NCBI GenBank assembly: GCA_028700325.1
Contig: JAQVSV010000013.1
Coordinates: 1-42,685, forward strand
Direction: 5' to 3'
Length of the DNA stretch: 42,685 nt
Source: Elusimicrobiaceae bacterium
GTDB taxonomy: Bacteria > Elusimicrobiota > Elusimicrobia > Elusimicrobiales > Elusimicrobiaceae
The notes beneath the pieces are model-generated. The model saw only the letters and a list, made by a program, of their open reading frames with translations, did no database searches and had not been told where the DNA came from. Every line of letters starts with the position of its first letter. The stretch's first letter is position 1. The translations under genes were made by a program, and so were the position numbers. Positions 6,621 through 20,404 of the stretch are shown here, piece after piece.

Positions 6621-8726
6621 TTATCTCCCTTTTATCTCTTTAAGCAGCAGCGTGTATTCAAGCGCGGCGCGCTTGGCGCGTTCGATATTATTGGCTGACG
6701 CACTGTGCCCTCCGTCAATATTCTCATAGTAATACACTTTGTTGCCGAGCGCGATGAGTTTTGCGGCTGATTTTCTGGCATGGCCGGGGTGCACGCGATC
6801 GTCTTTTGTCGAGGTAACGAAAAAGATGTCGGGATAAGCAACGCCTTTGCGGATGTTCTGGTACGGCGAATAGCGCGAAATTACGGCGCGCATGGCGGGT
6901 TCGTCGGGATCGCCGTATTCGGCTTTCCAGCTGTCGCCCGCAAGGAGCTTGGTGTAGCGCAGCATGTCGAGCAGGGGCACTTCGCAAAGCACCACCTTGA
7001 AAAGATCGGGCCGCTGGGTGAACATCGCGCCCATAAGCAGGCCCCCGTTGCTGCCGCCCTGCGCGCCCAGATGTCCGGGCGAGGTAACTTTTGTTTTTAC
7101 GAGATCTTCGGCGATGGCTATGAAATCGTCAAACGCTTTCTGCCGGTTTTCCAAAAGCGCGGCTTTATGCCATTTCGGCCCGAATTCGCCGCCCCCGCGG
7201 ATGTTGGCAAGCGCATACACGCCGCCCTGTTCCAGCCACAGGTTCCCCAGCACCGGGCTGTAGTGCGGCTCCATGGAAATTTCGAACCCGCCGTAGCCGT
7301 AAAGCAGAGTCGGATTGGCGCCGTCGTATTTCATGTTTTCCGGCCCGACCAGAAAATACGGAATTTTCGTGCCGTCTTTGCTGACCGCCTCTTTTTGCGT
7401 TACTTTTAACCCTTTCGCGCTGAATTTGGGCGGCAGCTGCTTGATGAGCTGCGGAGCGTTGGCGCCGTCGGTATAATACAGGCTGGGCGGAGTAAGAAAA
7501 TTGGCGTAGTCGAACATGAACCCGTTTGCGAAATCGTCGGCTGCCGTGACGCCCGCCGTGCCGTTATCCGCCACCGGGACGGTTTCGCCCGCCCACTGGC
7601 CGTTTTCCCGGTGAAATTTCAAAACGCGGCTTTTGACGTTGTCGAGAATAGAAACGAGCACGGTGTCTTTTGTGGTTGTTATTCCCGACAGGGTCATTCG
7701 GTCTCCCGGCTCTAAAATTGTCTGAATTTTACCGGCGGGATCGCCGGTGTCAACCGCCTGCCTGTCGAAAGAGACGAGGCTCCCCTGCTTGAATGTTCTG
7801 CCGCCGATTAACCAGTCGCTGCGCAGCGACGCCAGTATCAGGTTTTTGAAAACGCCGTAAAATCTGGCGTCTGCTGGCAGCGGGATTTTTTTTAGTTCGC
7901 CGCCGGAAAACAGCCAGTTTTCCTCTTCGAAAAAGCTGGGCGCGTTACTGACGCCCGAGTAGGCGCCTTCCGGACGGATGCCGCAGAATCCGCTGACGGC
8001 CATCGTGTCCTTGTCCCGCTCGAACAGGACGGGCGCGGCTTTGGGATCCGTGCCGCGCCGCCATTTGCGCACGAGGCGGGCATAGCCTGATTTTGTAACG
8101 GAATCGGGCGTGGTCGCGTCGGCAAAAAGCACGGTGTCACGGTCAAGCCAGGAAAGACCGCTTTTGCTTTCTTCCAGCCGGAACCCGTTTTTCACGAACT
8201 CCTTTTTTTCCACGTCGAATTCCCGGATCACGCTCGCGTCTTTCCCGCCTCTTGAAAGGGAAAGCAGGCAGAACCGGTTTTCCGGCGGCAGGCAACTGGA
8301 ACCTTTAAACACCCAGTTTTCCTTTTCTTTTTTTGACAGCTTGTCAAAATCCAGCAGGATTTCCCAGGCGGGTTTGTTTTTTTTATATTCCGGCAGGGTC
8401 GCTCTGCGCCATAAACCGCGCACGTTTTTTCCGTCCTGCCAGAAGTTATATACATAGCCGTTGCGCAGGGATCCGTAGGGTATGCGGTTTTTATCGTTGT
8501 AAAGCGCTTCCGCTTTTTTTAAAAACGGCGCGTAATGTCTGTCATTCTGGAGTTCGGCGAGGGTTGTTTTATTCTGGGCGCGCACCCAGTCCAGCGATTT
8601 TGAGCCTTCAATTTCTTCCAGCCACAGATACTGGTCGGGCGTATCCTCCGCCGACTGGGCAAACGCGCAGGGCGCGCCTATTGCCAGCGCTAACGCAACT
8701 GACACTGCTGTTATTGAAATTTGCAT
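6621..8726 (-). CDS. Prolyl oligopeptidase family serine peptidase (S9A), exported
   Basis: About 700 aa, the normal length for S9A enzymes. A signal peptide (ITAVSVALALAIGAPCAFA) leads to DQYLWLEEIEG, the typical N-terminal motif, then a seven-bladed propeller and an alpha/beta-hydrolase domain. The nucleophile is in GGSNGGLL, the acid in STKDDRVHP and the base in DGGHSA, so the triad is complete. It should cleave short peptides after proline in the periplasm. I chose the ATG at 8726 because GGAG is seven bases upstream; the ATG at 8732 leaves only one base. It is followed immediately by the NTF2-like gene and is divergent from the lipoprotein at 8836. Confidence 0.92.
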   Translation of the reverse strand: MQISITAVSVALALAIGAPCAFAQSAEDTPDQYLWLEEIEGSKSLDWVRAQNKTTLAELQNDRHYAPFLKKAEALYNDKNRIPYGSLRNGYVYNFWQDGKNVRGLWRRATLPEYKKNKPAWEILLDFDKLSKKEKENWVFKGSSCLPPENRFCLLSLSRGGKDASVIREFDVEKKEFVKNGFRLEESKSGLSWLDRDTVLFADATTPDSVTKSGYARLVRKWRRGTDPKAAPVLFERDKDTMAVSGFCGIRPEGAYSGVSNAPSFFEEENWLFSGGELKKIPLPADARFYGVFKNLILASLRSDWLIGGRTFKQGSLVSFDRQAVDTGDPAGKIQTILEPGDRMTLSGITTTKDTVLVSILDNVKSRVLKFHRENGQWAGETVPVADNGTAGVTAADDFANGFMFDYANFLTPPSLYYTDGANAPQLIKQLPPKFSAKGLKVTQKEAVSKDGTKIPYFLVGPENMKYDGANPTLLYGYGGFEISMEPHYSPVLGNLWLEQGGVYALANIRGGGEFGPKWHKAALLENRQKAFDDFIAIAEDLVKTKVTSPGHLGAQGGSNGGLLMGAMFTQRPDLFKVVLCEVPLLDMLRYTKLLAGDSWKAEYGDPDEPAMRAVISRYSPYQNIRKGVAYPDIFFVTSTKDDRVHPGHARKSAAKLIALGNKVYYYENIDGGHSASANNIERAKRAALEYTLLLKEIKGR

Positions 8727-8823
8727 TTGCATTCTCCATTAAATCTACTTGGTCAGTTTACTCAAATTTAAGGGATTTGCAAAACGGTTTCCGGCAACAG
8801 GTTCCATTTTTCAGCATAAATAG

Positions 8824-8829
8824 TATAAT
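8824..8829 (+). promoter_or_regulatory. -10 element for a probably leaderless mRNA
   Basis: A perfect TATAAT lies exactly six bases before the ATG at 8836. There is no Shine-Dalgarno and no clear -35 element. Transcription would start at the A of the ATG or within a base or two of it. Confidence 0.65.
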
Positions 8830-8835
8830 CAGACT

Positions 8836-9540
8836 ATGAAAAGAATACTCAACATGGCAGTATTATCGGTGTGCGCGGTTTTTTTGTCCGGCTGCACTTC
8901 AATAATGGTGTTTCAGGACGCGAAAACCGTGCCGCAGGGCAGTCTTGAAACCGGAGTCGGCATGGCTGCGGGCTCCTACAGTTCGCGCAGGACGCTGGCG
9001 AATTTTGATCTGACCGTTCCGTCCGTGGCGGGCAACGCCTGGCTGCGCTACGGTATTATTTCCTCGTGGGACGCGGGCGTCAATCTGGCGATACCCGGCA
9101 ACTGCACCGTTGACACGAAGGTGATGTTCATGAACGAGGACAACGGCGCGCCGTTCACCATGTCTGGCGGAGCCGGATACGGGTTCAGCATGGGCAACGG
9201 CAACACCGAAAACGACAGTCAGGTTCAGAAAGTGACCGACTACATCATCCCGCTTTACTTTTCAAAAAACATGCTCGACTGGCTTACCGCCTATGTGTCG
9301 CCGCGGTATTTCTACCGGCGAACCTATAACGAGCAGCGCTACACCAGTCTGCCCGCCACTTCGGAAGTGCTGTTCGACAATATGATGGGTGTTGGCGCCG
9401 GTTTTGCGTTTAACTTCAACGAAAAGAGTCGGCTGATGCTTGAGTGGCAGTATACGGCCCCGTTCTCGGACCTGCAGTTAAGTTCCGTCCAGCTCGGCAT
9501 CGGCCTTGCCACCCGCTGGGGCGGGAATAAGGAAAAGTAA
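8836..9540 (+). CDS. Lipoprotein with probable beta-barrel body
   Basis: A 234-aa protein with a lipoprotein signal: hydrophobic [14 protein letters not shown], in which LSGC is the lipobox and Cys20 the likely lipidated residue. The rest consists of alternating amphipathic strands rich in Gly and aromatics ([58 protein letters not shown]), as in small outer-membrane barrels. No catalytic motif is visible. It is a single gene with a leaderless-type promoter and a strong terminator after it. A structural or transport role in the outer membrane is inferred from composition only. Confidence 0.8.
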
Positions 9541-18421: not shown

Positions 18422-18432
18422 GGCAGCTCCGT

Positions 18433-18969
18433 TTATTTCACGTCCGGTTTGATTTTGGGTTTTTTTTCGTCCTGGCAGAAGCCTATTTTCCGCGCGGTTT
18501 CATCCTGCTCCAGGAAATGCTGGAGTCCGGCGGTATAACTGTCGCGGATTTCATCGAAAATAGCCTCATAAAGTTTATGCGCGGCGGACATGTCTTCGTT
18601 GCCGATATGATATTCGTGCCCGCCAGTGTCCATCTTTACGGTATAGGATTTTTCGTTGCGCTTGATCATGAACTCGAACACCACGGTTTCCTGCGGGGTT
18701 TTATCTTTTTTCTCGTAGAGAGTGAGGCCTACGCCGAAATGCCAGTAAGTGTCTTCCTCCAGATCCATGGCGCCCATCAGCGTGTAGGTATGCCCGGGGC
18801 GCAGTTCGCCTTTAAGCGGAAAGTAGCGAAGCTGGTCGGCGGGACAGTCAAGATAGGTCAGCAGGCCCGACATCAGCCATGCGGTGAAAGCCGTGCAGTC
18901 CTCCCGGTAATCGAAATAGTTTTTGCGGGCTTTCGAGTATGCTTTGCACAGCTGGTCGAATCTGGACAT
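18433..18969 (-). CDS. Unknown protein, third gene of an AlbA_2 cassette
   Basis: A 178-aa soluble protein that I do not recognise. I chose the ATG at 18969 because GGAGG lies four bases upstream; longer frames run into the previous gene. It begins MSRFDQLCKAYSKARKNYFDYREDC, with a mostly helical first 50 residues. A beta-rich centre follows (GELRPGHTYTLMGAMDL, WHFGVGLTLY, VVFEFMIKR, SYTVKMDTGGHEYHI), then a C-terminal helix and a basic tail. No signal peptide or TM segment is present. It lies ten bases after the 244-aa unknown gene and 11 bases before the molybdenum hydroxylase FAD subunit. Its role is probably tied to the two preceding genes. Confidence 0.75.
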   Translation of the reverse strand: MSRFDQLCKAYSKARKNYFDYREDCTAFTAWLMSGLLTYLDCPADQLRYFPLKGELRPGHTYTLMGAMDLEEDTYWHFGVGLTLYEKKDKTPQETVVFEFMIKRNEKSYTVKMDTGGHEYHIGNEDMSAAHKLYEAIFDEIRDSYTAGLQHFLEQDETARKIGFCQDEKKPKIKPDVK

Positions 18970-18979
18970 TGAGCCTCCG

Positions 18980-19714
18980 TTATAATGAGCGGGACAGGAA
19001 TATTTCCTGCTCCCGTTTGATGATTTCAGGCGCGGGCGGCAGCCACCCGAACCGTTCAAAAAACCACGCGCACGCCTTAAGCGCGTAGTGCGGGCTGTTG
19101 GAAATGATGTCGCGGCAGGCTATTTTCCAGTTCTGGCCCAGTTCGTTCTCGGCGGCGGAATAATAACGGTTCCACACGTCGCGGCTGTCGCTGGAAAGCA
19201 CAAACCCGCCTATGCCTTTAAGCTCCACTTCCACATACAGGCTGCCTTTGTAAATTTCCTGCGTGGCAAGTCGGGCGGCGAACTCGAAAATCTCCGTCAT
19301 GCGGTAGATGAAATTTTCGATCGAGATAAATCCGCGCGCCGCTTCCAGGTTCCGAAGCTGATCCGGCCCGCAGTTTTTCAGCATGCGCGCCTTGAGCGCG
19401 GACTGCCAGCGCTGATCCATGGTTTCCCTGAGCGAAAACAGATGCAGGAACTGGCCGCTCTGGTAAAACCGCCAGTATTCCAGATGCCCGCTGTCGGAGG
19501 TCCACGAAGCCACCCAGTCCAGCCCGTGGCCCCGCTCCGGCAGTTTGGAACTGACGTACGGGTAATGCCACCCGCGCAGTTTCACGCTGGTGTTTTCGAT
19601 GATGTTTTTGCATTCGGCGAGCGTTTTAATCCGTTCCGGACGGTACAGGTCGGGCCGGATAAGCACCCGCCAGTGCGGCACCTCGGTCACGTTTACGGGA
19701 AGCTGTCCGGTCAT
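18980..19714 (-). CDS. Unknown protein, second gene of an AlbA_2 cassette
   Basis: The 244-aa product starts with an ATG that overlaps the stop of the AlbA_2 gene (ATGA, 19711-19714), which means tight coupling. It is rich in Trp and aromatics (GWHYPYVSS, HGLDWVASW, LEYWRFYQSGQFLHLFSL, WFFERFGWLPPAPE), has no signal peptide and no TM segment, and looks alpha/beta. The RMTEIFEFAARLATQE helix and the SLYVEVELKGIGGFVLSS strands are the clearest elements. I cannot assign a family or activity. The fixed pairing with an AlbA_2 (Schlafen-type) protein suggests the two act together. Confidence 0.75.
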   Translation of the reverse strand: MTGQLPVNVTEVPHWRVLIRPDLYRPERIKTLAECKNIIENTSVKLRGWHYPYVSSKLPERGHGLDWVASWTSDSGHLEYWRFYQSGQFLHLFSLRETMDQRWQSALKARMLKNCGPDQLRNLEAARGFISIENFIYRMTEIFEFAARLATQEIYKGSLYVEVELKGIGGFVLSSDSRDVWNRYYSAAENELGQNWKIACRDIISNSPHYALKACAWFFERFGWLPPAPEIIKREQEIFLSRSL

Positions 19715-20355
19715 AAACCGCCCAGCTCCTCGTCGAATTTCCGCATTTCCGCGCGCTGGGCGTCGGCTCGGGCGGCGTCGGCAATGCCTATCTGCCGGAA
19801 CATCTCGATCAGGCGGCGCACCCGTTTTTCAACCGCCAGATCCAGCAGATCGTGCATCTGGTTCGCGTCCATGATCTGGGTGGTCTGCGGTTTGCCGGGC
19901 GTGCGGATGTAAATGCTGCCCTTGTGCATTTCTTCATTATCCGGCCCGTTTTTTTTGCAGACAAGCGGAGTTTCCCGGAATTCATGCACATAGATCGCCA
20001 GATAGCGCAGCTGCTGGTGTTTTATCAGCACGACATCGAGATCCACATAAGGCGACACATAGGCGTTCACCTGATCCACCACGATATCGCTGTCGTATGT
20101 GCTGAGGTGTTCCGAGCGGATGCCGGTGCGTTTCCACACGTTATTGCGTTCCGAAACGCCGATGACGATAATCCCCCCGTCGCGCAGGTTGCCCATGCCC
20201 AGCGCGGTGCGGATTATTTTATGTTTCAGCGTGTCCCAGGCCGCGGATTCCTTGAATTCTATATCCTGCGATTCCTGGCACCGGTCAATAGCCGCGCAAA
20301 CGCGTTCATGCAGCTGTTTGTGGCCCGGCAGTTCGGATGTGGGTATGGCGCCCAT
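19711..20355 (-). CDS. Schlafen/AlbA_2-domain protein
   Basis: 214 aa. Residues about 20-150 match the AlbA_2 (Schlafen AlbA-like) domain: QDIEFKESA near the start, then ALGMGNLRDGGIIVIGVSE (the family's Gly-rich nucleotide-binding-like turn), VNAYVSPYVDLDVVLI, and MHKGSIYIRTPGKPQTT. AlbA_2 proteins are often transcription regulators or nucleic-acid-associated factors, and some sit in defence or stress loci. Here the domain stands alone, followed by a short C-terminal helical segment (LLDLAVEKRVRRLIEMF). GAGG lies five bases before the ATG. It is the first gene of a cassette with two unknown genes, immediately after the terminator at 20377-20404, so it must have its own promoter close to its start or be fed by read-through. 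Confidence 0.85.
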   Translation of the reverse strand: MGAIPTSELPGHKQLHERVCAAIDRCQESQDIEFKESAAWDTLKHKIIRTALGMGNLRDGGIIVIGVSERNNVWKRTGIRSEHLSTYDSDIVVDQVNAYVSPYVDLDVVLIKHQQLRYLAIYVHEFRETPLVCKKNGPDNEEMHKGSIYIRTPGKPQTTQIMDANQMHDLLDLAVEKRVRRLIEMFRQIGIADAARADAQRAEMRKFDEELGGL

Positions 20356-20376
20356 GTAACCTCGTCAAAATAAAAA

Positions 20377-20404
20377 CCCGGACTGCCGAAACCGGCAGTC
20401 CGGG
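20377..20404 (-). terminator. Terminator after the cyclase-family hydrolase
   Basis: A perfect 12-base stem CCCGGACTGCCG / CGGCAGTCCGGG with a four-base loop, followed on the minus strand by TTTTTATTTT. Very strong. It divides the hydrolase at 20420 from the AlbA_2 cassette. Confidence 0.95.

Follow-up and report, generated by a model that had tools for sequence, protein, structure and literature searches.

The window analysed here is a stretch of 42,685 nucleotides from an Elusimicrobiaceae bacterium, and it carries three adjacent genes lodged between a cyclase gene and the gene for the FAD subunit of a molybdenum hydroxylase (table 1). The first encodes an AlbA_2 (Schlafen-type) protein and overlaps by ATGA the gene for a 244-aa protein; the 178-aa gene begins 10 bases past the stop codon of the latter, and the FAD-subunit gene follows 11 bases further on. 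The original prediction of three genes in this arrangement and at these positions is borne out by the comparisons: all on the minus strand, they are not chance open reading frames, since homologues occur in several phyla, and relatives in distant phyla start with the same residues (MGAIPTS.. and MSKFEE..), which supports both the reality of the genes and their assigned starts. No signal peptide is obvious by eye at the N-termini, and searches of Pfam, NCBIfam and PADLOC place the 244-aa and 178-aa proteins in no family, in line with the first description. The two proteins had also been called rich in tryptophan and other aromatic residues, which is true of the 244-aa protein (10 Trp, or 4.1%; F+W+Y 13.5%); the 178-aa protein shares the aromatic content (F+W+Y 13.5%) but has only two tryptophans.

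Table 1. Features of the three-gene insertion and its boundary (window coordinates).
Feature	Position	Strand	Basis
AlbA_2 (Schlafen-type) protein, 214 aa, predicted nuclease effector	19711..20355	minus	Pfam PF04326, PDB profile matches, column check
244-aa protein, undescribed family, predicted sensor/regulatory partner	18980..19714	minus	20 homologous loci, AF2 model
178-aa accessory protein	18433..18969	minus	tblastn to plasmids, E 2e-10; 11 viral-contig loci
GC-rich terminator-like hairpin 3' of the cyclase gene	20377..20404	minus	similar hairpins in relatives
Insertion, from cyclase terminator to FAD-subunit start	18422..20376	minus	no counterpart in relatives

The cyclase gene upstream of the cassette is conserved within the order Elusimicrobiales, mostly at 77–82% identity, and abuts the hydroxylase FAD gene in 24/24 relatives whose locus was read, usually with a gap of 24–121 bases. 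The three genes occupy exactly this gap in the window. Because the two flanking genes are adjacent in every one of these relatives, the trio is, judged by genome comparison, an insertion acquired horizontally next to the molybdenum hydroxylase, as had been proposed, and not part of the enzyme. The empty sites rule out a dedicated hydroxylase subunit or chaperone, and none of the other inspected loci that encode the 244-aa family lies beside a hydroxylase. No direct repeats of 7 bases or longer were found at the insertion boundaries. The 'very strong terminator' that the cassette was said to follow is real, with a 12-bp perfect stem and a T-run on the minus strand, but it is not a component of the cassette: GC-rich hairpins with folding energies of −25 kcal/mol or below occupy this gap in many relatives that lack the three genes, so the terminator belongs to the ancestral cyclase–hydroxylase site. 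At this same intergenic point, three relatives (L059, L070 and L075) carry a different small gene of approximately 115–130 aa, the product of which resembles by eye four-helix-bundle/23S rRNA intervening-sequence proteins; the site therefore tolerates insertions. In L070 and L075, a repeated GTCACAAGTCACAGGTCACAAG-type sequence flanks the small gene, suggesting a small mobile element. The location of the cassette, on the same strand as the FAD-subunit gene and so close upstream of it, would also suit a regulatory cassette for the cyclase–hydroxylase operon with AlbA_2 as a DNA-binding transcription factor, given that AlbA_2 domains are often annotated as nucleic-acid-binding or DNA-binding (PMC6299218). 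That the operon does without the cassette in all 24 relatives, and that other members of the family have no hydroxylase nearby, largely refutes this idea, which we regard as extremely improbable.

The AlbA_2 protein matches the Pfam family SLFN_AlbA_2 (PF04326) with 52.6 bits (E 8e-14) against a cut-off of 25.3; this is its only Pfam domain, with no C-terminal HATPase_c_4. In a profile search of the PDB the closest sequence is SLFN11 (7fex; E 4.5e-5), and the profile also matches SLFN14, a rodent Schlafen (5yd0) and the PDB-deposited CbCash. The acidic E-x4-[E/D] pair of Schlafen proteins is kept as E28 and E33, and a column check finds E28 in 12/12 relatives and [E/D]33 in 12/12. The two residues align with the ES..EFK motif of SLFN11 and match E205 and E210 of SLFN13, which are essential for tRNA cleavage by that enzyme, while its D248 contributes (PMC5862951). 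Where this third carboxylate would lie (SLFN13 D248, SLFN11 D252), the window protein has Ser68 with Glu69 adjacent, and an acid is present at 68 or 69 in 10 of the 12 relatives. With the first two positions invariably acidic and the third displaced by one residue, the protein is, on sequence grounds, most likely a Schlafen-type RNase; a nuclease effector reads better here than the regulator that had been considered for AlbA_2. PADLOC returned a weak partial match of the AlbA_2 protein to PDC-S50 (E 0.0018) and none for the 244-aa or 178-aa proteins. The C-terminal tail of the protein, FDEELGGL, is conserved, and its [F/Y/L]xxE[L/F/R] core seems by eye to be kept where AlbA_2 is fused to the 244-aa domain; part of this tail may be a protein contact and not merely a hidden ribosome-binding site.

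The 244-aa protein defines a family with the motifs LRGWxYPx and EYWRFYQSGQF and many invariant polar residues, including R46, E78, R81, Y83, S85, E96 and T139. Pfam was run on all members of this and the 178-aa family, and PHROGs on all members of the latter, with no convincing match; a PHROG search with the 244-aa and 178-aa proteins themselves gave a single chance-level match (E 0.2), and a PDB profile search with the 244-aa family gave nothing above chance. The AF2 model of the 244-aa protein is confident (pLDDT 87.9, pTM 0.88), and Foldseek found no match for it in the PDB (best E 0.03, TM-score 0.19) or among viral structures in BFVD (best E 0.016); matches of a TBP/AdoMetDC-like kind recur but are weak and insignificant. 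Judged by this model, the fold may be new when compared with solved and viral structures. Profile searches and structure prediction, which the original prediction had named as its check, thus assign no family or fold to either unrecognised protein, with a confident model for the 244-aa protein and a weak one for the 178-aa protein.

A survey of approximately 1,370 genome searches and three collections, of partial coverage, places the 244 domain at 20 loci across several phyla. Its hosts include Elusimicrobiota, three MAGs (one deltaproteobacterial, one from Nitrospirota and one from Eremiobacterota) and their relatives. A Rhizobium plasmid carries it too, as does a prophage contig in which the pair closely resembles that of Rhizobium. 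On the Rhizobium beringeri plasmid pRlX1 (L006:5888-6588) a frameshift interrupts the 244 gene but the adjacent AlbA_2 gene is intact; in the prophage copy (L008) both genes are intact. Searches of phage records with the 244-aa and 178-aa proteins by tblastn found none, nor did a second viral scan (alignment A5). In a tree of 244 domains the copy in the window falls into a clade (90/89) with those of G635, Nitrospirota and a deltaproteobacterial MAG, apart from those of its own phylum, which points to horizontal transfer. The same genome encodes a second, divergent AlbA_2–244 fusion that lacks the LRGW motif and is cut by the contig start (L019:2-1096, contig C101).

At 20/20 loci an effector-like partner lies directly upstream of the 244 domain or is fused to its N-terminus: AlbA_2 in 15 and a nucleoside-deoxyribosyltransferase (NDT)/TIR-like protein in 5. 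No 244 domain without one of these partners was found among the 20. AlbA_2 and 244 are separate genes in 10 loci, with junctions that are mostly ATGA or near-abutting, and form single polypeptides in five (L015, L016, L039, L052 and L019). The NDT/TIR-like partner is likewise separate in L040, L041 and L053 and fused in L017 and L055; it matches PF05014 weakly in L040 and L041 (E 1-2e-3) and has no match in the other three, where it was assigned by eye from typical motifs and alignment A7, and no convincing solved relatives were found for these partners. At one locus (L017:5159-7772, genome G176), the TIR-like–244 fusion adjoins a gene for a Schlafen AlbA_2–HATPase_c_4 protein, so both effector types are present.

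The label 'NDT/TIR partner' changes at least three times on well-supported branches of the 244 tree, and L051 and L053, the one partnered with AlbA_2 and the other with an NDT-like protein, carry sister 244 domains (87/60); what stays constant is thus the 244 domain, while the partner changes. Such swapping of AlbA_2 and TIR/NDT-like proteins is most simply read as an exchangeable effector joined to a common sensor or regulator, and it is from partner exchange only that we infer which is which. The roles might be reversed, with the 244 domain as a catalytic effector and the AlbA_2 or NDT/TIR-like proteins as sensors of nucleic acids or nucleotides: the invariant polar residues of the 244 domain are active-site-like in their number, and the frequent annotation of AlbA_2 as nucleic-acid-binding (PMC6299218) would suit a sensor. 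Defence systems, however, normally swap the effector, which here would be AlbA_2 or the TIR/NDT-like protein; moreover, in AlbA_2 the two acidic Schlafen positions are invariant, and the 244 domain matches no enzyme in fold or family. We consider such a reversal distinctly unlikely and treat the 244-aa protein as the putative sensor or regulator.

The 178-aa gene is, by its distribution and composition, separable from the pair and represents a separate prophage-carried family. Its relatives, at 25–31% identity, reside on contigs of enterobacterial temperate phages and on a Klebsiella plasmid; homologues at 11 viral-contig loci and on Klebsiella plasmids occur without the pair. No homologue lies beside the 19 other 244 loci inspected, and none was found in seven other 244-domain genomes by a search that had no internal positive control. 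The gene is also lower in GC (0.51 versus 0.57). A single, inseparable three-component system would explain why the three genes arrived as one block, and the 178-aa family is also found in a known defence hotspot, but these distributions and the difference in GC make it very unlikely. The trio foreseen as a conserved unit is rejected, the 178-aa family occurring elsewhere without the pair and not having been found in the seven genomes searched; it is AlbA_2 and 244 that are conserved together. The structural model of the 178-aa protein is weak (pLDDT 68.6; the family alignment used for it left out the row from the plasmid record), and Foldseek found nothing with it.

In one phage contig (L022) the 178-aa homologue sits between P2-type gpA and the portal/terminase genes, beside other accessory genes, and four further loci (L023–L026) are similar by gene content. 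The gpA–gpQ region of P2-like prophages is a known defence hotspot (PMC9122126); L022 resembles its cargo in position, whereas the window gene accompanies a different module. In L024 and L026, at approximately 7000-9000, an ATPase-like gene (by eye) and an OLD-like TOPRIM gene (E 3e-4) adjoin the 178-aa homologue, and by sequence these two are likely to form a separate defence pair. The 178-aa gene in the window probably represents a further mobile gene, with an accessory or defence role, that came along with the pair.

The surroundings of the AlbA_2–244 pair accord with the suggestion of a defence module, for it recurs inside restriction–modification (RM) and other defence loci, and several of the 20 copies of the 244 domain lie within such loci or touch them. 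In G061 (L015) the order is hsdM, a TIR gene, a small gene, a ThsB-TIR gene, hsdS, the AlbA_2–244 fusion and hsdR; the three genes between hsdM and hsdS (L015:11029-12515) encode a TIR protein, a small predicted membrane protein (by eye) and a ThsB-like TIR protein. In G352 the AlbA_2–244 fusion comes after genes for a YhcG-type nuclease and a GIY-YIG-like protein (the latter by eye) and is followed directly by hsdM–hsdS, and in the deltaproteobacterial MAG (L003) AlbA_2 and 244 run on into type III Mod and Res. Two NDT–244 pairs of G387 directly follow an SNF2/PLD helicase and an Eco57I-type RM gene, respectively. Elsewhere, DUF4062 and OLD-like AAA genes lie upstream of the pair (G654), NERD and HNH genes are nearby (L051), the pair sits between lexA and a three-Cys-motif-partner-like gene recognized by eye with no Pfam match (L042), or it belongs to a Rhizobium prophage with an integrase (L008). 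N6_Mtase occurs within approximately 5 kb of 3/18 loci against 0.11 expected (Poisson P 2e-4), a post hoc count in which two type I cases come from one weakly supported clade, and which supports but does not prove an association with RM and defence; several fusion loci are phylogenetically clustered. No clear defence gene touches L004, L005, L016, L018, L053 or L054, and in the window no RM or other defence gene lies beside the pair.

Two short overlapping genes that are mobile, with copies on a plasmid and within a prophage, also resemble a toxin–antitoxin pair for element maintenance, in which the toxin would be AlbA_2, acting as an RNase, and the 244-aa protein would serve simply as its antitoxin, without any sensing of infection. 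The frameshifted 244 gene of pRlX1 bears on this both ways, as decay of one partner beside an intact AlbA_2 gene, and as loss of the putative antitoxin where AlbA_2 is kept, a state that should damage the host if AlbA_2 were freely toxic. Against such a pair are the stable fusion of both domains in one protein, the use of the same 244 domain by chemically different partners and the embedding of the pair in RM operons; we regard it as unlikely.

Several known systems resemble the module in part. Like the Schlafen RNases SLFN11 and SLFN13, the window protein has an AlbA_2 domain with a pair of key glutamates spaced identically (ES-x3-[E/D]-F/Y-K), but this one small domain is all it has, with neither the second lobe nor the helicase; its third carboxylate is off the exact position, and it has a constant partner of a new family. 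Bacterial Schlafen–HATPase_c_4/wHTH defence proteins likewise place an AlbA_2 effector in defence loci, with proposed tRNA cleavage, whereas the partner here is the 244-aa family. PrrC is a tRNase (anticodon nuclease) restrained by its type I RM complex. The G061 fusion lies between hsdS and hsdR much as PrrC lies in its RM operon, but the nuclease and regulatory domain are unrelated to PrrC, and the setting within a type I RM operon is seen in G061 and G352 but not in the window or most other loci. The AbiJ-NTD/HEPN-Toprim-NTD type conflict domains offer a parallel in architecture, one domain combining with several toxins or effectors, among them nucleoside deoxyribosyltransferases and Schlafen (PMC3710099); the 244 domain similarly meets varied effectors, but it is C-terminal and has no Pfam match to such families.

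We therefore favour, with a probability of roughly 60%, a mobile pair of genes that acts against phages (or against mobile elements) and in which a Schlafen RNase effector is placed under a shared sensor or regulator; the small undescribed functional module first suggested would thus most probably serve defence. The 244-aa protein, often fused to the C-terminus of AlbA_2, would bind the effector and hold it off until an infection cue; once released, AlbA_2 would cut tRNA or other host RNA and halt growth. In other loci the 244 domain would control a TIR/NDT-like effector instead. Inside an RM operon the module would probably act as a second line, firing when restriction fails or is inhibited, like PrrC. 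In this genome it arrived horizontally, together with a 178-aa gene of prophage type, in the gap that separates the conserved cyclase gene from the molybdenum-hydroxylase operon.

The novelty lies in the 244-aa family and in the exchange of its partners. More tentatively, and at odds we would put below even, the 244-aa protein may found an infection-sensing family with a new fold, interchangeable effectors and a second-line role in monitoring restriction, which would be an undescribed modular class of immunity. Schlafen proteins are human antiviral tRNases, the bacterial roots of which have long been suspected; to our knowledge, little is known of how bacterial Schlafens are switched on. An unannotated 244 partner that accompanies Schlafen and TIR/NDT-like effectors across phyla and within RM operons is a candidate for this Schlafen switch, and as a small two-gene system the pair is directly testable.
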